From: Chloroflexota bacterium
GTDB lineage: Bacteria; Chloroflexota; UBA11872
Direction: 5' to 3'
Assembly: GCA_028873795.1 (NCBI GenBank)
Contig: JAPPNP010000042.1
Location: 25,292 to 62,829, forward strand
Length of the DNA: 37,538 bases
This document shows, one piece after another, positions 167 to 28,886 of the stretch. How positions within the stretch are numbered: the stretch's first letter is position 1; the number at the start of each line of letters is the position of its first letter. Position numbers and translations under genes: made by a program. The notes beneath the pieces are model-generated. The model did no database searches. It saw nothing but the letters and a program-made list of their open reading frames with translations, and had not been told where the DNA came from.

Positions 167-1021
167 CTAGCCGGTGGGCGCCGCGGCGTCGAAGTACATC
201 TCCACGCCCCAGGCGTCCTGGTACTCGGCATAGCCGTAGTCGGCCACGACGTTGAGCTCCCAGGCGCGCAGCGAGGCGTCGCGCTGACGCTCCACCGCCC
301 AGTCCTTGAAGATCACCAGGACCAGCGCCTCGCGGGAGAACACCCCGCCCTTGGCGTCGTCGGCGTTGTCCAGCGGCAGGTTGCCGGCCTGGAACAGATC
401 GATCCCGAAGGCCCGCCCGACCCAGTGGTTCTCGAGCACCGTCTGCGAGATGCCGCTGGGCACCGGGTAGGTGCCGATGGGGGAGATATCCGCCGCCAGG
501 TCATGCGCCTGGTAGGGATGCAGCACGCCGTAGTAGGGCATGGGCGCCGGCTCGTCGGCCGCGTGCAGCCGCGACACCGCCGCGCGCAGATACCCCATGG
601 TGATGGACTCGCCGGCTCCGCCCAGTGAGGCGCCAAAGCCGTCGAGCAGGCCGAGCAGGTCCGCGTCCAGCTTCTTGGCCACCGCGTCGCCGAGCACGCG
701 GCCGGCGGCCCGCGCCATGTCCTCACGCGCCGTGCGCAGCGCCCGATCCGTGATCACGATCTGCGCGCCAACCTCGGCGGGCGTGATCGTGACCTTGGTG
801 GTCGCCAGCGTCTGCGGGTTGGTCATGTCCACGCCCTCGGTGAGGGCGCCGGCCGTGACCGTGCCGAACTTTGGAATCTCCAGCGTGTCGCCGGCCCCGC
901 GGCTCACGCGGTAGGTGCGCACCAGCGGCTCCATCACCGTGCGATGCATCTGCGTCCGGCGCGCTTCGGCGATCACCGTGTCGACGACGTCCCCAATCGA
1001 GGCGCCCGTCGTAATCGCCAT
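167..1021 (-). CDS. Phage major capsid-like protein
   Basis: This 284-residue protein resembles phage major capsid (coat) proteins that form the head shell. The N-terminal part has the usual layout: a helical start, a segment around TLEIPKFGTV, and the VGAQIVITDRALR region leading into a helix. The C-terminal half carries the DWAVERQRDA segment common near the end of coat proteins. I chose the ATG at 1021 because AAAGGAGAG sits about five bases upstream; the frame stays open further upstream but that part is arginine-rich and unlike protein. Its strand matches the portal and terminase genes 4 kb away, from which plus-strand genes separate it. Tail genes, if any, would lie left of the window. 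Assignment is by recognition of the sequence, without a database search. Confidence 0.78.
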   Translation of the reverse strand: MAITTGASIGDVVDTVIAEARRTQMHRTVMEPLVRTYRVSRGAGDTLEIPKFGTVTAGALTEGVDMTNPQTLATTKVTITPAEVGAQIVITDRALRTAREDMARAAGRVLGDAVAKKLDADLLGLLDGFGASLGGAGESITMGYLRAAVSRLHAADEPAPMPYYGVLHPYQAHDLAADISPIGTYPVPSGISQTVLENHWVGRAFGIDLFQAGNLPLDNADDAKGGVFSREALVLVIFKDWAVERQRDASLRAWELNVVADYGYAEYQDAWGVEMYFDAAAPTG

Positions 1022-1392
1022 GGACTCTCCTTTCACGCCCCAAGCGGGCGTCATGGGAGTGATGAAGGCTCGCCGCGCGGATGCGGGAGACGGCCCCATG
1101 GGTGAGGGGCGTCCCGAAGACGACGGCCGGGGCACCGAACCGGACTCCTGCCGGTGATGCCGCCGGTCCGCCGCCTTCCAGCCGCGCGGAAGCGCATGGC
1201 GCCTGTCGATCGGGACGCGGGCGCGTCCGCGCCGGTCCGCACGGGCGTCCATCCGCCTTGAGAGGCGCGTCCGCCGCCTGCGAGCCGGCCCGGCGACGCC
1301 GAGCGCCGACCGTGGCGCACACCCACGGGACCCACCTCCGCAGCTCCGGGTCCGGAGCGCCGGGCGCATCCTCGTGGGCGCTTACATAGAGA
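1022..1392 (-). other. Long leader of the capsid gene, no gene supported
   Basis: About 370 bases separate the capsid start from the promoter-like dyad at 1393-1421. Several frames are open here on both strands, but all give arginine-, glycine- and proline-rich translations typical of chance open frames in GC-rich DNA. A decayed scaffold or protease gene would be expected at this place in a head module, but I cannot recognise one. Confidence 0.4.
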
Positions 1393-1421
1393 ACTCTACG
1401 TTACTCAAGTAACGTATGCAA
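1393..1421 (-). promoter_or_regulatory. Promoter-like site with 20-bp dyad in the spacer
   Basis: On the minus strand TTGCAT and TAGAGT are 17 bases apart, a sigma70-like arrangement with four matches per hexamer. The spacer is filled by the perfect dyad TACGTTACTCAAGTAACGTA (1397-1416). The core GTTAC-N4-GTAAC recurs in the same position before the portal gene. It would drive the capsid gene with a leader of about 360 bases. A protein bound to the dyad would be expected to block the polymerase. The promoter reading is inference; the dyad is directly visible. Confidence 0.5.
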
Positions 1422-1470
1422 ATGGAGTACAGAGCGGCCAAGACTTTGCGCGGCGGCACCAGACGGAGTT

Positions 1471-1497
1471 CGGTGGCCCGCGCTGCGTGCAGCGTGG
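1471..1497. repeat. 27-bp palindromic intergenic repeat, copy 1
   Basis: This is the first of three copies (others at 13125-13151 and 14115-14141) of a 27-base sequence. It begins CGGTGGC and ends in the hairpin CGCTGCGTGCAGCG plus TGG. All three copies lie in the same orientation and outside genes. This copy has one mismatch in the outer stem. Confidence 0.75.
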
Positions 1498-1514
1498 GGA
1501 TTCTCGTGGGAATC

Positions 1515-1566
1515 TTGGCAAGGAATTCGTGGATGTTGGTATGCTATCGTCTTGATATCACTATCG
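1515..1566 (+). promoter_or_regulatory. Candidate promoter and operator of the toxin-antitoxin pair
   Basis: TTGGCA (1515-1520) and TATGCT (1540-1545) form a weak promoter with a 19-base spacer. Just downstream the palindrome TGATATCA (1553-1560) is flanked by direct repeats CTATCG (1544-1549 and 1561-1566). Paired short repeats of this kind ahead of a ribbon-helix-helix antitoxin gene are typical autoregulatory operators. The antitoxin ribosome-binding site GGAGAG follows directly. Confidence 0.4.
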
Positions 1567-1576
1567 GAGAGACTCC

Positions 1577-1819
1577 ATGCGGCAGATTGCGCTGCGGGGA
1601 ATTCCGGACGACCTGCACCGCGAGCTGAAGGCGGCGGCAGCCCGTAACCATCGCAGCCTGAACGGCGAGATCCTGGCGCGCCTCACGGATTCCGTACACC
1701 CCGGCACCGCGGACATAACAGCGCTGCTGGCGCGGATTCGACAGCGGCACGAGACGCTGGGCCCAATCGACCTCAGCGAGGCGGCACTGCGAGAGTTGCG
1801 AAACGCCGGTCGCCCGTGA
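1577..1819 (+). CDS. Ribbon-helix-helix antitoxin, FitA/VapB-like
   Basis: This 80-residue protein has an N-terminal ribbon-helix-helix of the FitA/Arc type: a short strand (RQIALRGIP), then helix DDLHRELKAAAARN, a turn, and helix SLNGEILARL. Such proteins bind operator DNA as dimers and neutralise the adjacent PIN-domain toxin through their C-terminal tail. The start is supported by GGAGAG six bases upstream of ATG. Its stop codon overlaps the toxin's GTG start by four bases (GTGA), the usual coupling in vapBC operons. Autoregulation through the repeats at 1544-1566 is likely. Confidence 0.85.
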   Translation: MRQIALRGIPDDLHRELKAAAARNHRSLNGEILARLTDSVHPGTADITALLARIRQRHETLGPIDLSEAALRELRNAGRP

Positions 1820-2214
1820 TCGTGGTCGACACGAACACCATGGTCTACCTGCTGGTCGGCGGCCCGAGCGGGCCTGACGCAGTGCGACTCCTGGAGCGAG
1901 ACCCCCTGTGGGCGGCACCCGGAATCCTGCTCAGCGAGCTGCGCAACGTGCTGGTGGGTTTCGTGCGACGGGACGCGCTGTCGCCGGAGCATGCTGAGGT
2001 GATCTGCGCGGACGCGGCGGAAGTGCTCGGGGATCGTCTGTTCACGGTTCCGAGCAGTAACGTTTTGGACACAGCGCTGGCCTGTGGACTGAGTGCCTAC
2101 GACGCTGAGTTTGTAGTTTTGGCACGGCAATTCGATGTCCCGCTGGTAACCGCCGACCGAGAGATCCTTGGCTCCGCCACAGACGTTGCCGTCTCGCTGG
2201 TCGACCTGTCGTAG
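1816..2214 (+). CDS. PIN-domain ribonuclease toxin, VapC-like
   Basis: This 132-residue protein fits the size and layout of VapC toxins, which cleave RNA using Mg2+ held by acidic residues. The expected residues are present: Asp5 in VVDTNT, Glu41 in LLSELRNVL, Asp96 in AYDAEFVVLA and Asp114 in VTADREI. It starts with GTG inside the antitoxin stop codon, so the two are translationally coupled. The pair sits between the capsid gene and the other head genes, in opposite orientation, consistent with a cargo or stabilisation module. The RNA target cannot be told from the sequence. Confidence 0.87.
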   Translation: MIVVDTNTMVYLLVGGPSGPDAVRLLERDPLWAAPGILLSELRNVLVGFVRRDALSPEHAEVICADAAEVLGDRLFTVPSSNVLDTALACGLSAYDAEFVVLARQFDVPLVTADREILGSATDVAVSLVDLS

Positions 2215-2237
2215 CGATCCTGCGCCGAGGAGCACCA

Positions 2238-3692
2238 ATGCCACCCCAGAACCTCCTCGTCATCATGTCCGACGAGCACAACGCGCGCGTGCTCGGCTGC
2301 GCCGGGCATCCACTGGTCCAGACGCCGCATCTCGACGCGCTGGCGGCCCGCGGCACGCGCTTCGCCAACGCCTCGTGCAACTTCCCCATCTGCGTGCCCT
2401 CGCGGGCGAGCTTTCTCACCGGGCGCTACGGCCACCAGATCGGCGCCTGGGACAACGCCATGCCCTACACCGGCGACGCGGCGCCGAGCTGGGGCCACCG
2501 CCTGGCGGCCCATGGCCGTCAGGTCACCACCATCGGCAAGCTGCACTACCGCAACACCCGCGACGACATCGGCTTGCCGGACCAGCGCCTGCCCATGCAC
2601 GTGATGCACGAGCGCGGCGACGCGTTCGGCTCGATCCGCTGGAACATCCCACGCGCGCGCCGCCAGCTCGAGAACGTTCACGCCGCGGGCCCGGGCGATT
2701 CGGAGTATCTGCGTTACGACGCCGCCGTCGCCGACGAAGCCTGCGCCTGGCTGCGAGACGAAGCCGGGCGGCACGAGCAGCCGTGGTGCCTGTTCGTCTC
2801 CTTCACGCTGCCGCACTTTCCGTTGATCGCGCCGCCGGCCGATTTCGCGCGCTACCCGCTGGACGAGGTGCCGCTGCCGATCCAGTGGCATCCCGACGAG
2901 TGGCCCGACCATGCGCACGTGTCGGCCTTCCGCGAGGCGCGGATCTTCACACCCGAGGAGTTCCCCGGCGAGGAACCCACGCGCCGCGCGATTGCCGCCT
3001 ACCTGGGCATGTGCACCTATCTCGATCGTCAGATCGGGCGTGTGCTGGACGCACTTGACGCGTGCGGCCTAGACGACCGCACCCGCGTGATCTACACCAG
3101 CGACCACGGCGAGACGCTAGGCGATTACGGACTCTGGGGCAAGAGCGTGATGTATGACAGCGCCGTGGCCGTGCCGCTGATCCTGGCCGGGCCCGACGTG
3201 CCGGCAGGCGCGGTGCGCGACGTGAGCGTCTCGCTGGTGGACGCCTTTCCCACCATTTGCGAAGGCGTCGGGGCGCCGCTCGAAGCCGCCGACGCGGATC
3301 TGCCCGGCATGTCGCTGTGGCCGCTGGCGCGCGGCGACGGCCCCACGTCGCGCACGACGTTCGCCGAATACCACGCCAGCGGCTCGGTGTCGGGGGCGTT
3401 CATGCTCCGCGACGAGCGGTGGAAATATGTGCACTACCACGGCTTCGCGCCGCAGCTCTTCGATCTGGCGAACGACCCGGAAGAGCGCCAAGACCTGGCG
3501 GGCGATCCGGCGCACGCCGCCGACCTGCGGCGATTCGAGGCTCAGCTGCGCGCGATGGTCGACCCCGAGGCCGTGGAAGCCGAGGCCAAGGCCGCCCAGC
3601 GCCGTCTGGTCGAACGCAACGGCGGCGAGTCCGCCGTCCGCGCCGCCGGCCCGCAGATCAACTTCACCCGCGCGCCGAATCAATTCCGATAG
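2238..3692 (+). CDS. Sulfatase (type I, formylglycine-dependent)
   Basis: This 484-residue enzyme belongs to the alkaline-phosphatase-like sulfatase family that removes sulfate esters from small molecules or polysaccharides. The metal-binding start VIMSDEHN (Asp12) and the signature CVPSRASFLTG are present; Cys52 in C-x-P-S-R would be oxidised to formylglycine by a maturase, not seen here. SDHGETLGDYGLWGK near residue 290-305 supplies further metal and substrate contacts. GAGGAG precedes the ATG. No signal peptide is visible, so it is probably cytoplasmic. It lies 23 bases after the vapC-like gene but probably has an unrelated role. The substrate (choline sulfate, sulfated sugar or other) is not decidable from sequence alone. 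Confidence 0.9.
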   Translation: MPPQNLLVIMSDEHNARVLGCAGHPLVQTPHLDALAARGTRFANASCNFPICVPSRASFLTGRYGHQIGAWDNAMPYTGDAAPSWGHRLAAHGRQVTTIGKLHYRNTRDDIGLPDQRLPMHVMHERGDAFGSIRWNIPRARRQLENVHAAGPGDSEYLRYDAAVADEACAWLRDEAGRHEQPWCLFVSFTLPHFPLIAPPADFARYPLDEVPLPIQWHPDEWPDHAHVSAFREARIFTPEEFPGEEPTRRAIAAYLGMCTYLDRQIGRVLDALDACGLDDRTRVIYTSDHGETLGDYGLWGKSVMYDSAVAVPLILAGPDVPAGAVRDVSVSLVDAFPTICEGVGAPLEAADADLPGMSLWPLARGDGPTSRTTFAEYHASGSVSGAFMLRDERWKYVHYHGFAPQLFDLANDPEERQDLAGDPAHAADLRRFEAQLRAMVDPEAVEAEAKAAQRRLVERNGGESAVRAAGPQINFTRAPNQFR

Positions 3693-3746
3693 GCCTCCGG
3701 CTGACGCGGACCTGCGACCGGATGGCTTGATCCGAGGGCAAATCAG

Positions 3747-3810
3747 ATTCGCCCAAGGGAATACTCCCTTGACCAATTGGAATAATCGAATTATTCTCTG
3801 CTGACAAGAG
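3747..3810 (+). promoter_or_regulatory. AT-rich element upstream of the first Fic gene
   Basis: This AT-rich stretch holds GGGA-N4-TCCC and the dyad AATAATCGAATTATT. About 53 of its bases align without gaps to the minus strand at 29059-29111, upstream of a LiaF-like gene. By eye 36 of 53 positions match, with the core TAAT(C/T)GAATTATTCTC nearly invariant. It ends about 20 bases before the Fic start, so it probably includes that gene's promoter or operator. Confidence 0.45.
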
Positions 3811-3831
3811 ACCAATCCACAGGCGGAGCGC

Positions 3832-4992
3832 ATGGAATTCTCGCTGACGGCGGATATCAGCGACATCGACACGGATTCGCTCTTCCGGCGACTCTACGAG
3901 GTCCGCACGCTGATCCCGGGCGGCTACGAGCCCTATTTCCGCGAGCGCGCGCGCTATCTGAGCACGCTCGCCTCGGCGAAGGTGGAGGGCAACCCCCTCG
4001 GCTATGAAGAGGCCCGGGTCCTGTTTGCGGGCGAGGGCGATCCGGTCCGACCCGAGGAGCGCGAGCTGACGAACCTGCACGACGCCTATGGGCTGATGGA
4101 GCAACTGGCGGCGGACGCGACCGTGCGGATCGACCAGGGACTGCTGCGCGCCATGAACTCGCTGATCCTCGAGGGCTTGCCGGACGAGATGTCACGGCGC
4201 CGCGGGCAGTACCGCGCGGGACCTAGCCTGATCGAGGACGCGGAGTCGCGCGAGATTCGCTACCGGCCGCCGCCGCCGGCTTGGGTCCCGGACCTGATGG
4301 ACCGGCTGGTCGCCCACATCCAGCAATGGACGGCCGAAGAAAGCTTTCCCCCGCCGATCATCGCGGCGCTGGCGCACGCTGGCCTGGTCGCGATCCACCC
4401 GTTCGAGGAGGGGACCGGTCGCACGGCCCGTCTCCTGGCCGACATGATTCTGCACCAGGCGGGATGGTCGGAGGAGGGCATGCTGGTGCTGAACGTGGTG
4501 ATCTGGCGCAACCGCGACAGCTACTACCAGGCACTCCGCGACACGCACGGTCTGGACTTCCGGTCGGATGTCGATGGGACGCCGTTCGCCGCGTTCCACA
4601 CCGACGCCTTGCGCACGGCCGCCGCGATGCTCGAACACTTCGTCGTGTCGTTCAAGGGGCGTCAGGACGCCTGGCGGGAGGAGTTCGGTACACGCTTGAA
4701 CGAGCGGCAGACGCTGGGCCTGACCTACATCATCGACACGGGCTCCGTGTCCAGCTCCATGTACGCGCGGCTGATCGGCGCGTCCCCATCCACCGCCTAC
4801 GCGGACCTGACGCACCTGGTGTCCTGTGGCGCCGCCGTGCGATCGGGCAAGGGTCGGAATACGCGCTACGCGGCTAATCCAGACCTCTTGGCCCAGCTGA
4901 TCGCCGCGGTCGAGCGGTCGGGTTGGGCGGAGACGTATGTGAGAAAAGGCCGCCGGCGCGACTCAGACGGCGGCGACGGCTCGGAGCGGTAG
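3832..4992 (+). CDS. Fic-domain protein with winged-helix C-terminus
   Basis: This 386-residue Fic protein would transfer a nucleotide monophosphate, usually AMP, to a target protein. The Fic motif is HPFEEGTGRTAR at residues 189-200. It differs from the usual HPFxDGNGRxxR by Glu for Asp and Thr for Asn, so activity could be altered. An N-terminal inhibitory motif, S48-A-K-V-E52-G53, fits a class II Fic protein that blocks its own ATP site until relieved. Residues about 290-355 look like a winged-helix domain, suggesting DNA binding and possibly autoregulation. The start has a weak upstream AGGCGGAGCG sequence. It closes the plus-strand block inside the viral module. Confidence 0.88.
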   Translation: MEFSLTADISDIDTDSLFRRLYEVRTLIPGGYEPYFRERARYLSTLASAKVEGNPLGYEEARVLFAGEGDPVRPEERELTNLHDAYGLMEQLAADATVRIDQGLLRAMNSLILEGLPDEMSRRRGQYRAGPSLIEDAESREIRYRPPPPAWVPDLMDRLVAHIQQWTAEESFPPPIIAALAHAGLVAIHPFEEGTGRTARLLADMILHQAGWSEEGMLVLNVVIWRNRDSYYQALRDTHGLDFRSDVDGTPFAAFHTDALRTAAAMLEHFVVSFKGRQDAWREEFGTRLNERQTLGLTYIIDTGSVSSSMYARLIGASPSTAYADLTHLVSCGAAVRSGKGRNTRYAANPDLLAQLIAAVERSGWAETYVRKGRRRDSDGGDGSER

Positions 4993-5003
4993 CCCGACGA
5001 GGC

Positions 5004-5354
5004 TCACTCGGTGGCGTCGGCCTGCCGCCGCGCCCGAGTCTCCTGATAGTTGCGGTAGTTCGTCTGCAACGCTCGGATCAATTCGAGCACCCGCTCCGGG
5101 GTCAGAGCCAGGCGGGCCACGGGATGCACGGGAATCGTCCCGCGCTCCTGCAGCTTGGCGGCGGCCGCCATGACATCCGCGTCGGACCCCATGAGCAGCG
5201 GCGGCGACACGGCGCCCACGTTGAGATAGAACTCGTTGGTCTGCGCGTCGTGCTGGACGGCAAATCGGTTCGAGAAGTGGACTGGCAGGTCCTCAAAGCC
5301 CGACCAGTCGAGCTTGAGCGAGAGCTCGCTCGTCTCACGTGGGTTCTTGGCCAT
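5004..5354 (-). CDS. DUF3467-like small protein
   Basis: This 116-residue protein resembles the DUF3467 family of short bacterial proteins without a settled function. The typical features are the early FSNRFAVQHD segment, a strand EFYLNVGAVSPP, and the end RLALTPERVLELIRALQTNYRNYQ. ATG at 5354 is chosen because GAGGAG lies five bases upstream; an upstream in-frame ATG would add a proline-rich tail without a ribosome-binding site. It begins 79 bases after the large-terminase stop on the same strand, so it may be co-transcribed with the head genes. A viral role is inference from that position only. Confidence 0.65.
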   Translation of the reverse strand: MAKNPRETSELSLKLDWSGFEDLPVHFSNRFAVQHDAQTNEFYLNVGAVSPPLLMGSDADVMAAAAKLQERGTIPVHPVARLALTPERVLELIRALQTNYRNYQETRARRQADATE

Positions 5355-5432
5355 GCCGACTCCTCGCCGCGGCGCGCTGGGGCCAAATGGTAGCAACGGG
5401 CAGCGTGACGGACTCCCCGTGGACCGGCGCCG

Positions 5433-6704
5433 CTAGCCCACCAGCGCGAACGGCCGATACGCCCGCGCGGGCCGCGCCACGGGGCCGAAGCGGTCGTAGA
5501 GCCAGTAGACCAGCGCCTTGATGGCGTGGTTGTCGCGGTCGATGGGCAGCTCCGAGATCGGGCGGTCGTCGCGCGCCTCGTGATAGCGGTAGCTGCCAAA
5601 CTCCTGCATGAGCGCGCGGCAGGCCGGCGCCAGGGTGAATCGCGGCTCGCCGCTGGCGGGGTCGCGCAGAAACGTCCGCAAGCGGTCGATGCCGTCCTGG
5701 ATCCGCACGGGACGCGACCGCAGGCGCAGCCCGGCCAGGGCCTGCCAGATCTCAACCTGGCTGGCGCTGGCGTGGTGCTGGCGTCCGGCGACGTCGATGA
5801 CGCCGCCGCTCACCCGCGGCCACCACCAGCGACGGCGGCACTCGGCGATGATTTCGGCGGCGACCATGCGGCGGTGGTAGACCTCGTCGACCACCCGCAC
5901 CACGCCGGCGGCCTCGGTTACCGCGAGCACGGCGTAGGCCCCGGCGTAGCCCGGATCGATCGCGAGCTCGATGGATTGGACGCTCGCCGGGTCGACGGCG
6001 GCGACGTGCCGCGCTGGCTCGAACTCGGGAAACACCAGCGTCGCGGGCGGGCAGGGCACGCCGCCGAAGCGCTCCCGAAACACCGCCGCCGGATAGGTGG
6101 CTTCGAGCGCCTCGATCTCGGCGTCGGCGCGTCCGCCCGGGAACAGCGCCCGGTTGGACCAGGTGGGGATGGAGAACGACGCCGCCCCGTCGGCGTTCAC
6201 CACCTGCCAGGCGCTGAAATGGTCGGCGTACCAGCCGCGCGAGCCCTCGAACGTGCCGCTCAGCCAGAGCCAGCCGCGGCGCTCCGCCACGCGCCCGCGC
6301 AGCCGCAGAAAGACCTCGAAAGGCAGCTGGGCCGCCTCGCAGCCCAGAATTCCGTCGGGCGCCTCGCCGGCCAGCCGCGCCGGATCGCGGGCCGACTTGG
6401 TCACGATCCGCGCTCCCGTGCGGAGCGTCAGGCGGCACTGCTCCGAGCTGGGAAAGCTCAGGCTGTCGGTCGCGCCGATGGCCCCGAACGCCTCGGCCAG
6501 GTAGCGGAACTCGGGCCGGCAGAGCTCGTAGTCCGGGCCCACCAGCCAGTAGAGCCGGCCTTCCAGGCAGCGGCCGAACAGCTCCATGGCAGCGCTGCGG
6601 CTCTTGCCGGCGCGCTCACCGCCGGCGATCAGCCGAATGCGCGCGGGCGAGTCGTGCGCCCGCCGCTGCTCGGGACTCGGCGCGTAGCCGACGCGCCGCC
6701 ACAG
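5433..6704 (-). CDS. terL: Phage terminase large subunit
   Basis: This is the ATPase-nuclease that packages DNA into phage heads. Counting from a CTG at 6704, the Walker A motif GGERAGKS is at residues 28-35, a Walker B-like ILGCEAAQL follows near residue 130, and LWLSGTFEG fits the coupling motif. The nuclease part shows IELAIDPGYAG, VIDVAGRQHH and DRDNHAIKALVYW. The first ATG of the frame (6587) lies after Walker A, so it cannot be the start. Between the in-frame stop at 6753-6755 and Walker A there is no ATG, GTG or TTG. CTG at 6704, five bases past the preceding gene's stop, or a frameshift from that gene, are the options. About 423 residues is normal to short for the family. Confidence 0.85.
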   Translation of the reverse strand: MWRRVGYAPSPEQRRAHDSPARIRLIAGGERAGKSRSAAMELFGRCLEGRLYWLVGPDYELCRPEFRYLAEAFGAIGATDSLSFPSSEQCRLTLRTGARIVTKSARDPARLAGEAPDGILGCEAAQLPFEVFLRLRGRVAERRGWLWLSGTFEGSRGWYADHFSAWQVVNADGAASFSIPTWSNRALFPGGRADAEIEALEATYPAAVFRERFGGVPCPPATLVFPEFEPARHVAAVDPASVQSIELAIDPGYAGAYAVLAVTEAAGVVRVVDEVYHRRMVAAEIIAECRRRWWWPRVSGGVIDVAGRQHHASASQVEIWQALAGLRLRSRPVRIQDGIDRLRTFLRDPASGEPRFTLAPACRALMQEFGSYRYHEARDDRPISELPIDRDNHAIKALVYWLYDRFGPVARPARAYRPFALVG

Positions 6705-6708
6705 CGCC

Positions 6709-6945
6709 TCACGCGCTGTGCGCGAGGCGGGCGCGAATCTCCTCCAACAGGTTCACCAGCGCGTCCTCCGACGCCTCGGCCGAGCGGTCGAAGGCGTACT
6801 GCATCACCAGTTCGGTGGCCCAGCGCTCGCCCTTGCGCGCCTTCGCGATGACGGCGACGCAGATTTCGTCCGTGTGCTTCTCGGCCAGTTCGCGAAACCG
6901 CGCCGGGAAATCGTGCGGCGACGGCCGCCGTCTCGCCGCCGCCAC
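6709..6945 (-). CDS. Small-terminase-like protein (putative)
   Basis: A frame of about 78 residues from a GTG at 6945 overlaps the portal reading frame and ends five bases before the proposed large-terminase start. The part ARFRELAEKHTDEICVAVI and the following ARKGERWATELVMQYAFD reads like the helical small-terminase or DUF5681-type proteins, which have a comparable 'A..Gd..A...l..y' segment. Its amino acid composition looks protein-like, while the overlapping portal frame becomes arginine-rich. Position between portal and large terminase fits a DNA-recognition subunit. The start is uncertain because the frame is open further upstream and no clear ribosome-binding site is visible. Confidence 0.5.
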   Translation of the reverse strand: MAAARRRPSPHDFPARFRELAEKHTDEICVAVIAKARKGERWATELVMQYAFDRSAEASEDALVNLLEEIRARLAHSA

Positions 6946-8627
6946 GAGGCGGCCGCCTGAGCCACGCGCTCCGCGTCCTCCGTGTCCGCGCCGCCCTCGC
7001 GGCGCCACAGCTCGCGCCGCACCTCCGGATCGTCCATCATCTCCTCCCGCAGGATCTCCGCCTGCATCTCCGCGGCGTTGGCGATGCCCAGCTTCTCCTG
7101 CATCGCCCAGCGCCGGGACGCCAGCTTGGCCGCCACCAGGTTCGCGGCGTAGGCCCCCTGGGCAATCTCATCCGCCGGGGCCAGCGCCTCCAGCCTGGCG
7201 CGCACCGCGTAGTAGCCGTTGATGTCACGCGGCGACAGGCCGAGCCACGCGGCATCGTCGTCGCCGTAGACGTACACCGTCTCCCGCACCCGGTGCTCGA
7301 CGAGGCGCCAGGCCAACTGGACGATGCGCTCCAGCGCCTGCTCGGCGTGCCGCGTGATCTGGTTGAACGACAGTCGCGCCGCGTTGATCAGCTGGTTCAG
7401 GTAGTAGCCACTCGTGTTGCCGTCCGGCGCGATGCCGAAGAGCACCGTGGGCACGCCGGCCTGGTCGATCATCGAGCGCGTCAGGGCGATCAACTCGTCG
7501 AGATCGGGCGGCGTGCCCGACCATTGCAGCAAGCTCAGGTCTTCGCCGGGGAACAGCGGCAGAATCTCGCCCGGCCGGAACTCGATCGGCGGCGGGCGGC
7601 CGTCGTCCCCAAGGGCGCCGTCGCTGCCCGCGAAGCCGGTGAGCTTGGGCGTGGGATAGGCGTAGAGATGCACCGCGTTCTGTTTCATGGTGAGCAGCCG
7701 GTCGAGCAGCGGCACCAGGTATTCCACCGACGCCAGCATCGACTCGCCGGCCTTGGCCGGATCGCGGCTGGGCGATTGGTTGCCGTGCGCCATCACGTAG
7801 GGCACCGCGCCGTAGGCGTGTCGCCCGCGCCGCACCAGGTGACCGTCCACCAGGTAGGCAAAGTGCTCGCGGTCCCAGTATTCGACCACGCGCACGCTGC
7901 CCCCCGCGGCCGCCGGCCCCTCGCTCGACGATGCGCGGCCCGCCGGCGTCAGCCGGCCCGATCGACGGTCTTCGATCAGGCCGTAGCGCCGCATCATGAG
8001 CCACTTGGGGCGCTCGGCGATCTCCAGGCACGCCTCGACTCCGTCGTCGCCGATCAGCGGATAGAAGGTCAGCACGTCCACGTCGCGCCAGGCCAGCGGG
8101 AACGGCGCGGAACGCTTGAACCGCGTCGACCGCTCGTTGAAGGCCGCGTCGGTCTCCGGCCCGGCGTCGCCGCGACGCGGATAGCCCGTCCAGCGCTCGG
8201 GCATGTAGACCAGCTTCATCACGCCGGTGCCGTCGGCCACCAGCGCGTCCACGAACATGCCGAAGATGTCGCGCCCGGCGTCGTTCTTCATGCGTCGCAA
8301 GGCCGCGGCCGTCCAACGCTCGCGGCGCGAGGCATTCGCTCGGCTCTCCGACGTCTGGTCGGCCGGCGGCACGCTGACCGTCGGGTGGTTGGCCGTCAGG
8401 CTGCCCACGACGCGCTTGAGCTGCTCGCGGGCCAGCGGGGTTCGTACCTCGCGCGTCGTGGCCCGGTAGGCCGCCGGAATGTCTACCGGCTCCTCCATGA
8501 ATCGCAGCCGCCGCAAGCGCTCGATGCGGGCGTTGCGCCCGCCAAACTCGGTGAGCAGGTGCTGCTCCAGCTCGTGAACGTAAGACTCGGACGGTGGGGG
8601 CAACGCATCGGGGCGAAGCTCGGACAA
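6804..8627 (-). CDS. Phage portal-like protein
   Basis: This 607-residue frame resembles portal proteins, the ring at the head vertex through which DNA enters. It has an N-terminal helical region, FGMFVDALVADGTGVMKLVY, the stretch PYVMAHGNQSPSRDPAKAGE followed by ESMLASVEYLVPLLDRLLTM, and a long C-terminal helical part with QLINAARLSFNQITRHAEQ. The start is TTG at 8627, supported by GGGAGG about five bases upstream. The last 45 or so residues (after about residue 560) are arginine-rich and overlap the better-looking small-terminase frame, so the natural end may be earlier or a frameshift may have occurred. A promoter-like dyad lies 62-91 bases upstream. Confidence 0.8.
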   Translation of the reverse strand: MSELRPDALPPPSESYVHELEQHLLTEFGGRNARIERLRRLRFMEEPVDIPAAYRATTREVRTPLAREQLKRVVGSLTANHPTVSVPPADQTSESRANASRRERWTAAALRRMKNDAGRDIFGMFVDALVADGTGVMKLVYMPERWTGYPRRGDAGPETDAAFNERSTRFKRSAPFPLAWRDVDVLTFYPLIGDDGVEACLEIAERPKWLMMRRYGLIEDRRSGRLTPAGRASSSEGPAAAGGSVRVVEYWDREHFAYLVDGHLVRRGRHAYGAVPYVMAHGNQSPSRDPAKAGESMLASVEYLVPLLDRLLTMKQNAVHLYAYPTPKLTGFAGSDGALGDDGRPPPIEFRPGEILPLFPGEDLSLLQWSGTPPDLDELIALTRSMIDQAGVPTVLFGIAPDGNTSGYYLNQLINAARLSFNQITRHAEQALERIVQLAWRLVEHRVRETVYVYGDDDAAWLGLSPRDINGYYAVRARLEALAPADEIAQGAYAANLVAAKLASRRWAMQEKLGIANAAEMQAEILREEMMDDPEVRRELWRREGGADTEDAERVAQAAASWRRRDGGRRRTISRRGFANWPRSTRTKSASPSSRRRARASAGPPNW

Positions 8628-8688
8628 GAGGGCCTCCCGGTGTCAGTGGCGCGGCACGCGTGGCGCGCGCCGTCGTGCTACAGCCCCC

Positions 8689-8718
8689 ATCCTAGATCGT
8701 TACAATTGTAACTTCCAA
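8689..8718 (-). promoter_or_regulatory. Promoter-like site with GTTAC-N4-GTAAC dyad
   Basis: On the minus strand TTGGAA and TAGGAT are separated by 18 bases. The spacer contains the perfect 14-bp palindrome GTTACAATTGTAAC (8699-8712). The arrangement matches that before the capsid gene (1393-1421). It lies 62-91 bases upstream of the portal TTG start. I read it as the promoter-operator of the portal-terminase operon, with the regulator unknown and not in the window. Confidence 0.5.
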
Positions 8719-8791
8719 AGCCGTCTGGTAATCCAACGCGTCCCCGCAACGTGCGCTTACCCTGCCGCGTGCTCGCTGCCGGACCCGTCGC

Positions 8792-9613: not shown

Positions 9614-9657
9614 CCCAGATTCGACCGGACTGGATTCCGGCCTCCGCCGGAATGACG
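9614..9657. repeat. 44-bp palindromic intergenic repeat
   Basis: These 44 bases match 25681-25724 with one mismatch. The core is the hairpin TTCCGGC-N6-GCCGGAA followed by TGACG. Shorter versions occur at 17866-17888, and inverted at 23716-23742. It lies between two minus-strand genes and behaves like a REP-type element. Confidence 0.8.
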
Positions 9658-23859: not shown

Positions 23860-24711
23860 ATGATCGATTTCAACCGATCCTTCATCACCTGGACCATCGA
23901 GTGGGCCGAGCCCGACCCGGTCTATGCCTACGCCGGCGGATTCGTGGGAGAGCCGGGCGAGGCCACGACTAGCCGCCTACAGATCGACGCCGGCTGCGAG
24001 ATCGTCGATGACGCGCGAGGGACGGCCTGCACCATCTACCTCACCGCGCCGTGCCGCTCCGAGTTCATCATCGCCGCCGACAACCTGTTTCAGGTGCCCA
24101 ACGGCGAGTTCCGCGCCGCGGTCGGCGACGCGTGCATGGTCCCCATCGCCACCGAGCCAAGCTGGGAGAACGAGGACACGCGACGGCAGCCCATCGCGGC
24201 GCAATTCGCGGAGTTCGCCATCGACCTGCGTACCCATGACGCCGAAGCCCTGGCGTCGGACGACGCCGTCGTGGCGGCGTCGCTGGCGGGCGACCGCCTC
24301 AACGCCCGGTCCACCTACCGCGACGACACGCACGGCCTGACCGTCACCGTGGAATACCCGATCAAGCTCATCAATCTGCACGCCGGCGGCGGACGCTACC
24401 AGGTGTGCACCGGCGCCGTGGCGCTGCCCGACCTGACGACTTGGGACGGCGCGGGCGTCGACCGGGTCTTCGCCGCCCACGCGGCCTTCACCGCCGACGA
24501 CCACGTGGAGTTCATCCTGCGACGCGGCGTCGAGATCGCCGAGCGCGAGCTGGCCTGGGCGGCCGCCGTGCGCGGGCGCGACCGGTACCAGCGGCGCGAC
24601 TCCGGTGAGCCGGCCGACCGGCCGCGCCCCCGCGCCGCCGGCTACTTCGAGACCTGGGAGCTGCCGGCGGTCAACACCGTCCTGCGGGCCGCCAACGAGG
24701 CGCGCCGGTGA
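23860..24711 (+). CDS. Protein of unknown family, first of a tandem pair
   Basis: I do not recognise this 283-residue protein. The next gene is a paralogue of identical length. Segments shared by both include PDPxYxYxGGFVGEPGEA near residues 18-35, NLFQVPxxEFRxA at 75-86, GLTVTxEYPI near the middle, and ALPDLxTWDGAxVxRVF with AHAAF and EFILRR later. No signal peptide, membrane segment or nucleotide-binding motif is seen. The strands and aromatic/glycine turns suggest an all-beta, possibly sugar-binding, fold, but that is a guess. There is no clear ribosome-binding site. The stop overlaps the next gene's start by four bases (GTGA), so the products are likely made together and could form a heteromer. 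Confidence 0.8.
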   Translation: MIDFNRSFITWTIEWAEPDPVYAYAGGFVGEPGEATTSRLQIDAGCEIVDDARGTACTIYLTAPCRSEFIIAADNLFQVPNGEFRAAVGDACMVPIATEPSWENEDTRRQPIAAQFAEFAIDLRTHDAEALASDDAVVAASLAGDRLNARSTYRDDTHGLTVTVEYPIKLINLHAGGGRYQVCTGAVALPDLTTWDGAGVDRVFAAHAAFTADDHVEFILRRGVEIAERELAWAAAVRGRDRYQRRDSGEPADRPRPRAAGYFETWELPAVNTVLRAANEARR

Positions 24712-25559
24712 TCGACTTCGCCCGCTCGCACTTCACCTGGGACCACCGGCCCCACGAGCCGGACCCCGACTACAAGTACCCCGGCGGCTTCGTGGGCGAG
24801 CCCGGCGAGGCCTATCACGTGCGCATCGGCTACGACGCCGTCTGCACGATCAGCGGTGAGCGGGACGCGCCGCCGCTGGAGATCTTCCTGCTGCAGCCCT
24901 GTTTGGCCGAATACACCATCGCCGACCGCAACCTGTTCCAGGTGCCCAGCCAGGAGTTCCGCGTGGCGCTCAGCCGCACGCACGGCATCCCCATCGCCAG
25001 GCGCCCGTCAACCGAGCGCGAGCCGACCGCCGCCACGCCGCACGCCGGCCGCTACGCCGGCACGGATTTCACGACCCACGAGGTTCCCGACGCGCAGGCC
25101 ACGCGCGACGCCGGCGAGGTCATGCGCGCGGTCTTGGCCGGCCGGCGCTTGAATGCCCGCACCACGCACCACGAAGACGCCCTCGGGCTGACCGTCACGC
25201 TGGAATACCCCATTCGCACCATCAACATCGAGCGGACCAAGGGCGCCTTTCAGGTCGACACCGGGCCGATGGCGCTGCCCGATCTCGCAACGTGGGACGG
25301 GGCCGCCGTGTCGCGGGTGTTCCTGGCCCACGCGGCCTTCAGCGCCTGGGACCGCACCGAGTTCATCCTGCGGCGCGACGTGGAGCCATTGGAATCGGAG
25401 CAGTGGTGGTGGGAGGTGCGGGGCCGCGACCGCCGCGCCCTGCACTACCCCGCCCAAACGCCCACTGAGCCGCCGCTGCCGCGCCGCCCACCCACGCTCT
25501 ACAACGAAACGCTGGTCGTGACCGTCCGCAACGAGATCCTCATCGCGCCGGAGGGTTGA
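24708..25559 (+). CDS. Protein of unknown family, second of a tandem pair
   Basis: This 283-residue paralogue begins with GTG inside the previous stop codon. By eye it shares close to half its positions with the first copy; the middle (GLTVTLEYPIRTIN and ALPDLATWDGAAVSRVF) is strongest. The C-terminal end differs more: the first ends in PAVNTVLRAANEARR, this one in ETLVVTVRNEILIAPEG. That fits old tandem duplication followed by specialisation. Both are followed by a repeat-rich gap. Function unknown. Confidence 0.8.
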   Translation: MIDFARSHFTWDHRPHEPDPDYKYPGGFVGEPGEAYHVRIGYDAVCTISGERDAPPLEIFLLQPCLAEYTIADRNLFQVPSQEFRVALSRTHGIPIARRPSTEREPTAATPHAGRYAGTDFTTHEVPDAQATRDAGEVMRAVLAGRRLNARTTHHEDALGLTVTLEYPIRTINIERTKGAFQVDTGPMALPDLATWDGAAVSRVFLAHAAFSAWDRTEFILRRDVEPLESEQWWWEVRGRDRRALHYPAQTPTEPPLPRRPPTLYNETLVVTVRNEILIAPEG

Positions 25560-25875: not shown

Positions 25876-26679
25876 TCAGGCGTGGCGAATTCGCACCCGG
25901 CCCAGGTGTGAAGATCCCTGGATTAGCAGGTTCACGAAACCCGCGTCCGGCTCCGGTTCGTCGCTTCCACTGACGCCGCGCCTGCGGCTGCCGATCGACC
26001 GCATCGGACCAATCCAGTTGCGGGGCACGGGGCTGCCGTGTTCCCCGGCGAGCCGCGCCTCGAGCACCAGGCGCGAAAGCGTGGTGTTCACGTTTTGGCC
26101 GATACGCCACCAGATCGGGACGACCAGGTCCAGCCGGCCCGCCACGCACGTCACGTCGAGGATCGCCGGCGGCCGTGTGATGTCGACGTAGCGCAGATCG
26201 ACGGTGACGTCGCACAGCCGACAGGTGATCTCGCCCCGCCGGACATCGCCCCTCGCGCGCAGCGTGCCCCCGGTATAGGTCAGGTCCACGTGGCTGTCTT
26301 TCCACCCCCGCAGGCGCACCGTGCGGCGCGTGCGGATGGCCCCGTTTTGCCACAGGGCGCCGAAGGCGACGATCGCGAAGGCCAACCAGATGCCCAATTG
26401 CACGCCGCCGCCGAAATCGCCCAGATGGCTCACTTGCACCAGGACCCCAGCGCCCATGACAAGCCAGGGGATCGGACTGAGGAAGCCGAGATCATTTGCC
26501 CAGCTGAGACCAAAGAGGACCAAAATCATCGTCAGGAGGTCCCAGTGATCGAGGACGCCGACCATGCGCAGGATGACCCAAAAGATGGCGACCAGCCCGA
26601 AAGCCGCTCGCATGAAGCGCGGCGAGTCCAGCAGCTGGCGCCAGTACGGCTTGGCCATCGTGAAGCGCCGGTCAGGCAT
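25876..26679 (-). CDS. LiaF-like membrane protein, copy 1
   Basis: This 267-residue protein has four N-terminal hydrophobic segments (about 28-42, 47-62, 70-84, 94-110) and a C-terminal beta-rich part. The C-terminal part (VTVDLRYVDITRPPAIL, then DVTCVAGRLDLVVP) resembles the LiaF-like 'cell-wall-active antibiotics response' domain, which regulates envelope-stress signalling. A C-x-x-C (CRLC, 153-156) is conserved in all three tandem copies. ATG at 26679 makes all three copies exactly 267 residues; an upstream in-frame start would add 51 residues found only in copies 1 and 2. No sensor kinase or LiaSR pair lies nearby, so the role is open. Confidence 0.65.
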   Translation of the reverse strand: MPDRRFTMAKPYWRQLLDSPRFMRAAFGLVAIFWVILRMVGVLDHWDLLTMILVLFGLSWANDLGFLSPIPWLVMGAGVLVQVSHLGDFGGGVQLGIWLAFAIVAFGALWQNGAIRTRRTVRLRGWKDSHVDLTYTGGTLRARGDVRRGEITCRLCDVTVDLRYVDITRPPAILDVTCVAGRLDLVVPIWWRIGQNVNTTLSRLVLEARLAGEHGSPVPRNWIGPMRSIGSRRRGVSGSDEPEPDAGFVNLLIQGSSHLGRVRIRHA

Positions 26680-26859
26680 GGGATCGACCACCGTGCCTGG
26701 TGCCAGTTCTGGACGAGTACCGCGCCGAGCAGGCCCAAAGGCCATGCTCGTCCCGTGGCACGAGCCCAGTCTGGTGCATGCAGCGCTCCTCAATTCGGAG
26801 CCTAGCAAAGCGCCGCTTTCGTCAGACCGCACGAGGAATCGAGCCTTAAGGCCTGGACA

Positions 26860-26970
26860 TCAACCCTCGACACCGCGGAAATCTGTCGCCGCCAGATTGG
26901 ACAGCGCGGCGGTCCGGCGCAGTCGCCCGATCAAGACGCACTCATGGCCAGAGTGGGCCGTGGCGGCGAG
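26860..26970 (-). pseudogene. Fragment of an M20 peptidase gene 3' end
   Basis: On the minus strand this stretch reads ATAHSGHECVLIGRLRRTAA, then LSNLAATDFRGVEG and a stop. It matches the end of the intact M20 peptidase (ATAHSDHERVSVERLHRTAG, then LYALAAMEFCGVDE and stop). The fragment begins just after the stop of LiaF-like copy 2 and ends about 180 bases before copy 1. It shows that the tandem duplication unit included the tail of the peptidase gene. Confidence 0.8.
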
Positions 26971-26979
26971 CGTCGGTCG

Positions 26980-27783
26980 TCAGGCGTGGAGAATGCGGAT
27001 GCGGCCGAAGTGCGACGACCCCTGGACCAGCAGGTTCACGAAGCCGGCGTCCGGCTCCGGATCGCCGCTCTTGCGGAAGCCGCGCCTCCGGCTGCCGACT
27101 GGCCGCATGCGCGCATACCACGATTGCGGCCTGGGGCTGCCGTGTTCCCCGGCGATGCGCGCCTCAAGCACCAGGCGCGAGAGCGTGGTGTTCACATTCT
27201 GGCCGATGCGCCACCAGATTGGGACGACCAGGTCCAGCCGGCCCGCAACGCAGGTCACGTCGAGGATCGTCGGCGGACGCGTGATGTCGACGTAACGCAA
27301 ATCCACCACGACGTCGCACAGCCTGCAGGTGATCTCGCCCCGCCGGACGTCGCCCCGAGCGCGCAGCGTGCCCCCGGTGTAGCTGAGGTCCACGTGGCTG
27401 TCCCTCCACCCCCGCAGGCGCACCGTCCGACGCGTGCGGATGGTTCCGCTTTGCCACAGGGCGCCGAAGGCAACGATCGCGAAGGCCATCCAAATTCCCA
27501 GCTGCACGCCGCCACTGAACTCGCCAAGATGACCCACCTGCACCAGGACTCCGGCGCCAACCGCAAGCCACCCGGACGGGTTGCGCGGGCCGTGTTCCAT
27601 CATCCAGTCGAGACCGGCGATAGCCAAGACGACTGTCAGCAGGTCCCATAAGTCGAGAATCCCCAACAAGTAAAGAATGATCCACAGGTAGAACGCCGCC
27701 CCGACGAGACTCCGCACGACACGCGGCGAGTCGAGCATCTGGCGCCAGAACGGCCTGGCCATCATGTAGCGCTGGTCAGGCAT
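26980..27783 (-). CDS. LiaF-like membrane protein, copy 2
   Basis: Second 267-residue copy with the same topology and the CRLC motif. Its soluble part is almost the same as copy 1 (for example RPPTILDVTCVAGRLDLVVP), while the membrane segments differ more (LVGAAFYLWIILYLLGILDL against FGLVAIFWVILRMVGVLDHW). Its stop is 1104 bases from that of copy 1. The start at 27783 was set by comparison with the other copies; the ribosome-binding site is weak. The upstream leader is about 97% the same as that of copy 1 over some 215 bases. Confidence 0.65.
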   Translation of the reverse strand: MPDQRYMMARPFWRQMLDSPRVVRSLVGAAFYLWIILYLLGILDLWDLLTVVLAIAGLDWMMEHGPRNPSGWLAVGAGVLVQVGHLGEFSGGVQLGIWMAFAIVAFGALWQSGTIRTRRTVRLRGWRDSHVDLSYTGGTLRARGDVRRGEITCRLCDVVVDLRYVDITRPPTILDVTCVAGRLDLVVPIWWRIGQNVNTTLSRLVLEARIAGEHGSPRPQSWYARMRPVGSRRRGFRKSGDPEPDAGFVNLLVQGSSHFGRIRILHA

Positions 27784-27963
27784 CGAATCGACCACCGTGC
27801 CTGCGGCCAGTTCTGGACGAATATCGCGCCGAGCAGGCCCAAAGGCCATGCTCGTCCCGTGGCACGAGCCCAGTCTGGGGCATGCAGCGCTCCTCGATTC
27901 GGAGCCTAGCAAAGCGCCGCTTTCGTCAGACCGCACGAGGAATCGAGCCTTCAGGCCTGGACA

Positions 27964-28075
27964 TCAACCCTCGACACCGCGGAAATCTGTCGCCGCCAGC
28001 GTGGACAGCGCGGCGGTCCGGCGCAGACGCCCGATCAAGACGCACTCATGGCCCAGTGGCCCGTCGCGGCGACCG
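27964..28075 (-). pseudogene. Second fragment of an M20 peptidase gene 3' end
   Basis: This fragment is nearly the same as that at 26860-26970 and likewise ends with a peptidase-like tail and stop (TGA at 27966-27964). It starts right after LiaF-like copy 3. The inner part near 28060 is less like the intact gene than the part near the stop. Confidence 0.8.
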
Positions 28076-28082
28076 CCGGTCG

Positions 28083-28886
28083 TCAGGCGTGGAGAATCCG
28101 GATGCGGCCCAGGTGCGACGACCCCTGCACCACCAGGTTCACAAAGCCCGGGTCAGTGTCGGGCGCGATGAGGTCGCGGAATCCCTTGGTGGGCTCCCCG
28201 ACCGGTTGCATCGGCGCAACCCAGGTTTCCGCCGGGATACCGACCTGCTCCCCAACCAGGCGCGCCTCGAGCACCCCGTGCGAGAACGTCGTGCGCACGT
28301 CGCGGCTGATGCGCCACGACAGTGGGACAACCAAGTCCAGCCGGCCCGCGACGCACGTCACGTCGAGAATCGCCGGCGGGCGGGTGATGTCGGCATATCG
28401 CAGATCGACGACAAGATTGCATAGCCGGCACGTGATCTCGCCCCGCCGGACATCGCCCCGGGCGCGCAGCGCGTTCCCGGTTGCGGTGAGATCCACATGG
28501 CTATCTTTCCACCCGCGCAAGCGCACCGTGCGACGCGTGCGGATGGTTCCGCTTCGCCACAGGATGCCCACGGTAACGATCGCGAAGGCCATCCAAATGC
28601 CCAGCTGCACGTTGCCGCCAAACCCGCCGATATGGCTCACCTGCACCAGCACTCCGGCGCCAGCCAAGAGCCATCCAATCGGGCTGCCCAGGCCGAGGTC
28701 ATATAGCCAGGCACAGCCAACGAGGACAAGCATGATCGTCAGCAGATGCCAGATGTCGGAAACCCCAACTATGCGCAGGATGATCCAAAAGAAGATCGTC
28801 ACTCCGAATACGCCGCGCACAAAGACTGGGGAATCCACCAGCCGTTCCCAGAGCGGCTTACTCATCTGATAGCGCGGCTCATGCAT
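28083..28886 (-). CDS. LiaF-like membrane protein, copy 3
   Basis: Third 267-residue copy, the most diverged and nearest to the intact M20 peptidase. It keeps the four membrane segments, the CRLC motif and the RPPAILDVTCVAGRLDLVVP block. GAGGG lies eight bases upstream of the ATG at 28886. It is 1103 bases from copy 2, stop to stop. Being next to the peptidase gene whose tail is copied, it may be the ancestral copy. Its leader holds the AT-rich element 29059-29122. Confidence 0.65.
   Translation of the reverse strand: MHEPRYQMSKPLWERLVDSPVFVRGVFGVTIFFWIILRIVGVSDIWHLLTIMLVLVGCAWLYDLGLGSPIGWLLAGAGVLVQVSHIGGFGGNVQLGIWMAFAIVTVGILWRSGTIRTRRTVRLRGWKDSHVDLTATGNALRARGDVRRGEITCRLCNLVVDLRYADITRPPAILDVTCVAGRLDLVVPLSWRISRDVRTTFSHGVLEARLVGEQVGIPAETWVAPMQPVGEPTKGFRDLIAPDTDPGFVNLVVQGSSHLGRIRILHA

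Follow-up and report, generated by a model that had tools for sequence, protein, structure and literature searches.

What could hold together two groups of phage-like head genes that stand apart on a bacterial chromosome? The question is raised by a stretch of 37,538 nucleotides (nt) from a Chloroflexota bacterium (contig JAPPNP010000042.1; hereafter the window), in which a portal operon and a capsid gene are each preceded, on the minus strand, by a promoter-like block with the same dyad, GTTAC-N4-GTAAC, in its spacer. A pattern search with GTTACNNNNGTAAC matched the window at 1400-1413 (dyad 1, GTTACTCAAGTAAC) and 8699-8712 (dyad 2, GTTACAATTGTAAC), and no further copy was found in the window at zero or one mismatch. 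This agrees with the original prediction, made from the letters of the window, and the minus-strand hexamers with spacers of 17 and 18 bases filled by the dyads also lie where it had placed them (Table 1). We consider, with a probability of roughly 60%, that both dyads serve as operators for a single dedicated regulator, which would switch the two operons of a domesticated phage module resembling a gene transfer agent (GTA).

The dyad is rare. Two exact copies occurred in none of 100 shuffled versions of the window, and two copies at one mismatch in four of the 100, and a first-order Markov model of the window's contig yields an expectation of 0.14 copies per genome. The whole assembly (3,182,888 bases in 89 contigs), which the original prediction had proposed searching, contains GTTACN4GTAAC twice, both times within the window and never at unrelated genes; a reversed-pattern control gave one match in the whole genome. 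When the 15-mer GTTACN4GTAACG was allowed one mismatch, four additional sites were found in the window's genome, in a scan that required the flanking G and left 14-mers lacking it unlisted, so that two sites before a regulator gene, in genomes G003 and G004, were missed there. A promoter scan requiring 9 of the 12 sigma-70 consensus bases detected neither dyad promoter and the hexamers are weak matches; they are nevertheless supported because they are conserved in six genomes, despite the weak match to consensus.

These comparisons covered 19 genomes of the family, of which six (G000-G005, G000 being the window's own genome) belong to the genus of the window and 13 (G006-G018) to a sister genus. 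The six carry 11 exact dyads, each of them upstream of either the portal or the capsid gene, as expected from the original suggestion of a split head-gene module with dyads before the portal operon and the capsid gene; the twelfth site, in the capsid promoter of G004, has one mismatch. In alignments of the six genomes both capsid hexamers are identical throughout, the portal TAGGAT is always kept and TTGGAA is kept in five, G001 being one base shorter there. The promoter block is conserved and the flank upstream of it aligns poorly. Within the sites themselves, those of the portal, the capsid and the regulator gene described below taken together, the columns that vary number 1 of 30 in the arms and 6 of 12 in the centres (Fisher p 0.001, a descriptive figure given that the genomes compared are related). 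In G003, where some 39 kb separates the two operons and they lie on opposite strands, the dyad is retained at each. Restricted as they are to the portal and capsid operons, the dyads are probably operators of one dedicated regulator. In the otherwise diverged flank of the portal dyad, some 20 nt upstream (window 8718-8740, minus strand), all six genomes share an unchanged GATTACC, which may perhaps constitute a second contact.

The most likely candidate for the dedicated regulator, as judged from sequence comparison, is a 231-amino-acid (aa) XRE protein with two HTH_3 domains, and one of the four one-mismatch sites of the window's genome lies 40 nt before its ATG. It matches PF01381 in two stretches (92.4 bits, the cut-off being 23), and orthologs are present in all 19 genomes, with 96-97% identity in the genus of the window and 66-70% in the sister genus, where that of G007 is in two pieces. 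The promoter carries GTTACN4GTGAC at the same position in all six genomes of the window's genus, the flank upstream having diverged, and the site stands directly before a possible promoter pair recognised by eye (TTGGCG, 17 nt, TACATT). A regulator gene with the dyad in its own promoter had been proposed as a check; what was found is a consistent near-copy and not the exact dyad. The other one-mismatch sites of the window's genome are one in the terminal part of the gene preceding lexA and two, at C11:4237 and C75:14740, that overlap open frames.

A structure predicted for the XRE protein (mean pLDDT, the model's own confidence score, 75) contains two helix-turn-helix (HTH) units and would place the recognition helix of the second at residues 149-156. 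These residues read PSQVSALE in all six sequences from the window's genus and VSVITDLE or close variants in 11 aligned sequences from the sister genus, and the recognition helix of the first unit is identical in all 17, an alignment made without G007 and G008. Presence of the operator and type of second recognition helix split the same two genera and therefore the differences coincide between the groups; we treat the coincidence as a correlation, the second HTH region being also less conserved generally.

The genes served by the two promoters seem to form one operon of portal, small open reading frame (ORF) and terminase, and another of capsid, tail-like and lysis genes. The portal was identified from a weak PHROG match and otherwise from its size and position. 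The small ORF gave no protein-family match and is placed as a small terminase by position alone; small terminases of GTAs without a detectable DNA-binding domain are mentioned in a review (PMC11841831). The Walker A motif of the large terminase, together with two nuclease-like motifs, recurs in all eight relatives examined. Past the left end of the window, on the same strand as the capsid gene and 3' to it, lie genes for proteins of 75, 273 and 785 aa, a tail fibre-like protein, smaller ORFs and an M23 peptidase/transglycosylase (M23/SLT). The structure predicted for the 785-aa protein was poor (mean pLDDT 45.9) and was not used.

Two irregularities were seen within these operons. At 6804-7008 the portal frame of the window runs past the position of a TGA found in the genus's five other genomes, and the small conserved ORF that follows is in a different frame; a species-specific change or an assembly error may be the cause. 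Just outside the left end of the window, 10 N and three runs of G or C of 19-24 bases (L004 12146-12291, contig C5) look like a scaffold gap or low-quality sequence within the capsid operon, and the link of the capsid to its downstream genes would therefore cross a scaffold gap in the window's genome; stretches from eight relatives contain no N and no G/C run of at least 12.

The inheritance of this module bears on whether the original prediction was right to speak of viral genes. Portal and capsid are each single-copy in 18 of the 19 family genomes, the exception being G006, which is 76% complete. The capsid profile matched none of five sister-family genomes, 18 of 24 genomes of the order and 17 of 301 of the phylum, all 17 within the family, and was absent from 283 phylum genomes outside it. 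A scan of named genomes gave 15 loci, all titled as Chloroflexi or Chloroflexota metagenome-assembled genomes, with the window's own record possibly omitted. The median ratios of nonsynonymous to synonymous substitution (dN/dS) were 0.086 for capsid, 0.061 for portal and 0.075 for RelA in the window's genus and 0.089, 0.127 and 0.061, respectively, in the sister genus; portal and RelA have close dS values (0.288 and 0.293) in the former. Distance matrices of portal and RelA correlate in the two genera (r 0.76 and 0.81), as do those of capsid and RelA in the sister genus (r 0.94). Among viral contigs, a close-range scan revealed no portal relative and a profile scan (IMG/VR) 22 capsid relatives at 31-47% identity; named phages yielded six capsid relatives at 28-38% identity and 176 records with a terminase relative.

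Thus, tailed-phage head, packaging and tail genes, the portal by its weak match, reside in the host chromosome, they are inherited vertically in single copy over the host clade, and their structural genes are under purifying selection, features by which GTAs are recognised. Single-copy inheritance and purifying selection together imply that the module was acquired, kept and selected by the family. The best reading is therefore of a domesticated, GTA-like module, known here from its genes, and not of a passing prophage: the phage derivation in the original description holds, and a current prophage does not.

A further element of the capsid operon, besides the dyads, is its leader, which measures 371 nt in the window and 359-453 nt over 18 genomes, from promoter to capsid ATG, and appears to be a new conserved structured RNA outside Rfam. 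The consensus structure of 10 leaders from the sister genus comprises 124 pairs, with 94.8% of cells paired. In it 29 pairs have changed on both sides as against 14.6 in shuffles (reached in none of 500), in a count favoured by predicting the structure from the same alignment; G014 (453 nt) and G018 (359 nt) had been omitted for length before counting. Sliding the structure by 1-3 columns left only 4-9 such pairs. Alignment of all 18 leaders, with hand-made anchors for the stem counts, gave 55 consensus pairs of which 21 have changed on both sides. The core hairpin alone hardly covaries within the sister genus (1 pair, equalled in 343 of 500 shuffles).

A covariance model of the 85-nt core (R1), built from 12 leaders of the sister genus and run genome-wide at E <= 0.001, found the capsid leader and nothing else in 18 of the 19 family genomes, with two hits in G011, on opposite strands at one and the same place, and none in G006; 150 of several thousand first-pass candidates per genome were scored. 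We rely on this RNA because the whole 10-leader structure covaries and because the model from one genus finds the leader in the other. None of the 4227 Rfam models matched the window at gathering threshold, or the leader loci L039, L053 and L056 at E <= 1, and R1 found no relative at E <= 0.01 in the loci of the 22 IMG/VR capsid relatives. The simplest reading, taken from position alone, is that the leader acts in cis, as an RNA controlling the capsid operon. A long frame running from the leader into the capsid (167-1369) was judged non-coding in view of a one-base gap in G001.

These elements suggest the following mechanism. The XRE protein would bind the dyad as a dimer between the -35 and -10 hexamers of both operons, and next to the -35 of its own gene, controlling its own expression. 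When bound it would exclude RNA polymerase and repress all three promoters, and on its release both operons would be expressed in step; the long structured leader would probably add control at the RNA level on the capsid operon.

The sign of this control is a less secure part of the original prediction, which had proposed a shared repressor. A shared regulator agrees with the 11 exact dyads and the near-copy at the XRE gene; the repressor sign does not follow, given that an activator or antiterminator can bind a palindrome placed likewise. In Caulobacter, a near-perfect palindrome in the GTA promoter, between -10 and -35, is the binding site of GafZ, which acts by antitermination with GafY (PMC11150451). 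By analogy, a dedicated activator or antiterminator of the Q or GafZ kind might bind the dyad, load on RNA polymerase and read through the structured capsid leader. The weakness of the promoter hexamers and the long structured leader behind one of the two promoters fit such a scheme. Against it, a search of 900-1700 gave no intrinsic terminator, the leader before the portal gene measures only some 60 nt and XRE proteins are more often repressors, so that we hold it to be rather unlikely, and prefer repression by the XRE protein.

It is also conceivable that the dyad is an unbound leftover operator of an ancestral phage repressor in a decaying prophage. Phage regulators usually target phage head promoters, and no genes for replication, integration (integrase) or lysogeny were noticed in the stretches read, where no dedicated search for them was made. 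However, the arms of the dyad are conserved while its centres and flanks change, and 18 of 19 genomes have portal and capsid genes with open frames that are under purifying selection, which makes a relic very improbable.

Several observations weigh against operators of a dedicated regulator. The XRE promoter site is itself one base off the dyad, and in the window's genus the distances of capsid and RelA show no clear correlation (r 0.35, p 0.10). A one-mismatch site lies before a glycosyltransferase gene, with 15-mers in three of the six genomes of the genus, one of which was read; there, the dyad-like sequence GTTACATTCGTCAC (L140 979-993, G003:C2) lies between a BrkB-family gene and the glycosyltransferase gene. 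Another recurs about 130 nt before lexA, within the coding end of the preceding gene.

A further objection comes from the sister genus, from which the dyad is absent although the XRE protein and the module are retained; the XRE loci fetched from it contain no GTTACN4GTRAC. According to an alignment, its portal and capsid promoters have instead TTGC-N5-GTNNNC-N5-GNRTAYANT in common, a pattern of which 11 of the 13 sister-genus genomes contain 9-30 copies each. The pattern is missing from G006, G018 and the six genomes of the window's genus, and a reversed control gave no match in any of the 19. In view of its copy number we rejected it as a separate dedicated operator: it is frequent genome-wide and therefore apparently a general promoter type, and the claim of a dedicated operator is confined to the window's genus. 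It looks like a common promoter type of the sister genus with a dyad-like spacer, and the dyad circuit would then be a trait of the window's genus or have been rewired between the genera. An exact dyad that recurs in the sister genus was discarded as a coding coincidence, being placed, in eight aligned loci, within the coding region of a glycosyltransferase (DVTVVTY).

The site near lexA could mean that LexA binds the dyad and that the module is SOS-controlled. It was seen in the three genomes read, matching 15-mers occur in five of six, and prophage genes are often SOS-induced; its location within the preceding coding sequence, and the lack of an exact dyad both at lexA and at other places of the genome, where an SOS regulon should have several, leave this explanation with scarcely any credence. 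We give equally little to the VapB (FitA-like) antitoxin encoded at 1577-1819 as the protein binding dyad 1, with dyad 2 a further target or a chance occurrence: inverted repeats are frequent binding sites of ribbon-helix-helix antitoxins and roughly 160 bases separate its gene start from dyad 1, but G003 retains the dyad with no relative matched in the stretches read, the relative in G002 is only 64% identical and the neighbouring VapC was matched in G001, G004 and G005 only.

Among known systems, the CcGTA of Caulobacter crescentus is similar in its host-kept phage head genes and in the palindrome that its cluster promoter carries between -10 and -35 (PMC11150451). A further likeness is to RogA, the repressor of gafYZ, which binds a promoter with inverted repeats, GGAA-N4-TTCC, likewise with an N4 centre (PMC9632790). 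The module described here differs from CcGTA in its phylum, in its capsid type (the nearest named capsids being podoviral), in having two operons with a common operator and a two-HTH XRE candidate rather than the LexA-like RogA, and in its long structured capsid leader. The RcGTA of Rhodobacter capsulatus is comparable as a phage-derived cluster under a direct dedicated regulator, GafA (PMC6363796), whose elements are described as unmapped at nucleotide resolution (PMC11150451).

The nearest named capsids are those of Pelagibacter phages HTVC112P, HTVC111P, HTVC026P and HTVC202P, together with Phage DSL-LC06 (33.5-37.8% identity over 93-98%); these differ in being free phages of 29.8-32.5 kb, and the HTVC phages are presumably podoviruses. 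The XRE candidate shares the HTH_3 fold with RstR, DdrO, SinR, P22 c2 and SaPI Stl, by weak matches in sequence and fold, mostly to one HTH unit and with no match at E <= 0.001 in the fold search, and it differs from them in carrying two HTH units in a single chain. To our knowledge GTTAC-N4-GTRAC is not an operator of any of these regulators.

More tentatively, and at less than even odds, the module may be an independently domesticated, podovirus-derived GTA of a Chloroflexota family, with a dedicated two-HTH XRE switch acting at some three operators in each genome, a capsid-leader RNA of a new structured family controlling or joining particle production, and an operator rewired between genera along with the recognition helix of the regulator. 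Few GTAs have been verified outside the alphaproteobacteria, and no report of one from Chloroflexota was found in our literature searches (titles and beginnings of abstracts of openly licensed PubMed Central papers). A 2024 review calls for features separating GTAs from phages and for work on the regulation of distant GTAs (PMC11841831). What the present locus adds is a head module inherited throughout a clade, together with a conserved leader RNA outside Rfam, an operator pair and a named candidate for the regulator, the last two being open to testing in a laboratory host.

Table 1. Coordinates in the window of the dyads, promoter-like blocks, leader and structural genes
Feature	Position	Strand	Remarks
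Dyad 1	1400..1413	.	spacer of capsid-operon promoter
Dyad 2	8699..8712	.	spacer of portal-operon promoter
Capsid-operon promoter-like block	1393..1421	-	TTGCAT 1416-1421, 17 nt, TAGAGT 1393-1398
Portal-operon promoter-like block	8689..8718	-	TTGGAA 8713-8718, 18 nt, TAGGAT 8689-8694
Capsid leader, predicted structured RNA	1022..1392	-	371 nt; minimum free energy z-score -5.0; covariation in 10 leaders of the sister genus
Leader core hairpin	1114..1197	-	model R1, from the sister genus only, E 3.4e-7
Major capsid protein gene	167..1021	-	Pfam PF25209 (Phage_capsid_4) 40.3 bits, PHROG 267
Portal protein gene, TTG start	6804..8627	-	weak PHROG 156 match, E 0.0068; 18/19 family genomes
Small ORF, conserved part	6712..6930	-	between portal and terminase, small-terminase position; aligned in 9 genomes
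Large terminase gene, start codon uncertain	5433..6707	-	PHROG 2, E 2.1e-22; Walker A GGERAGKS

The window carries other features. Between the two phage operons, at 1577-4992 and on the opposite strand, lie the FitA/VapB-VapC pair, a sulfatase gene and a gene for a Fic protein, and in G018 of the sister genus a sulfatase relative likewise lies between the portal and capsid operons. An interspersed palindrome resembling repetitive extragenic palindromic elements occurs at 9632, 17865, 23718, 25699 and 35325, four copies having the form ATTCCGGCG..NGCCGGAATCC and one ATTCCCGCGCAGGCGGGAATCC, where none was expected from shuffles. Three similar genes without a Pfam match are arranged in tandem on the minus strand at 25876-28886, the first two being 77% identical and the third recognised by eye, and two adjacent paralogs of 283 aa on the plus strand at 23860-25559, again without a Pfam match, are 53% identical over 245 residues.

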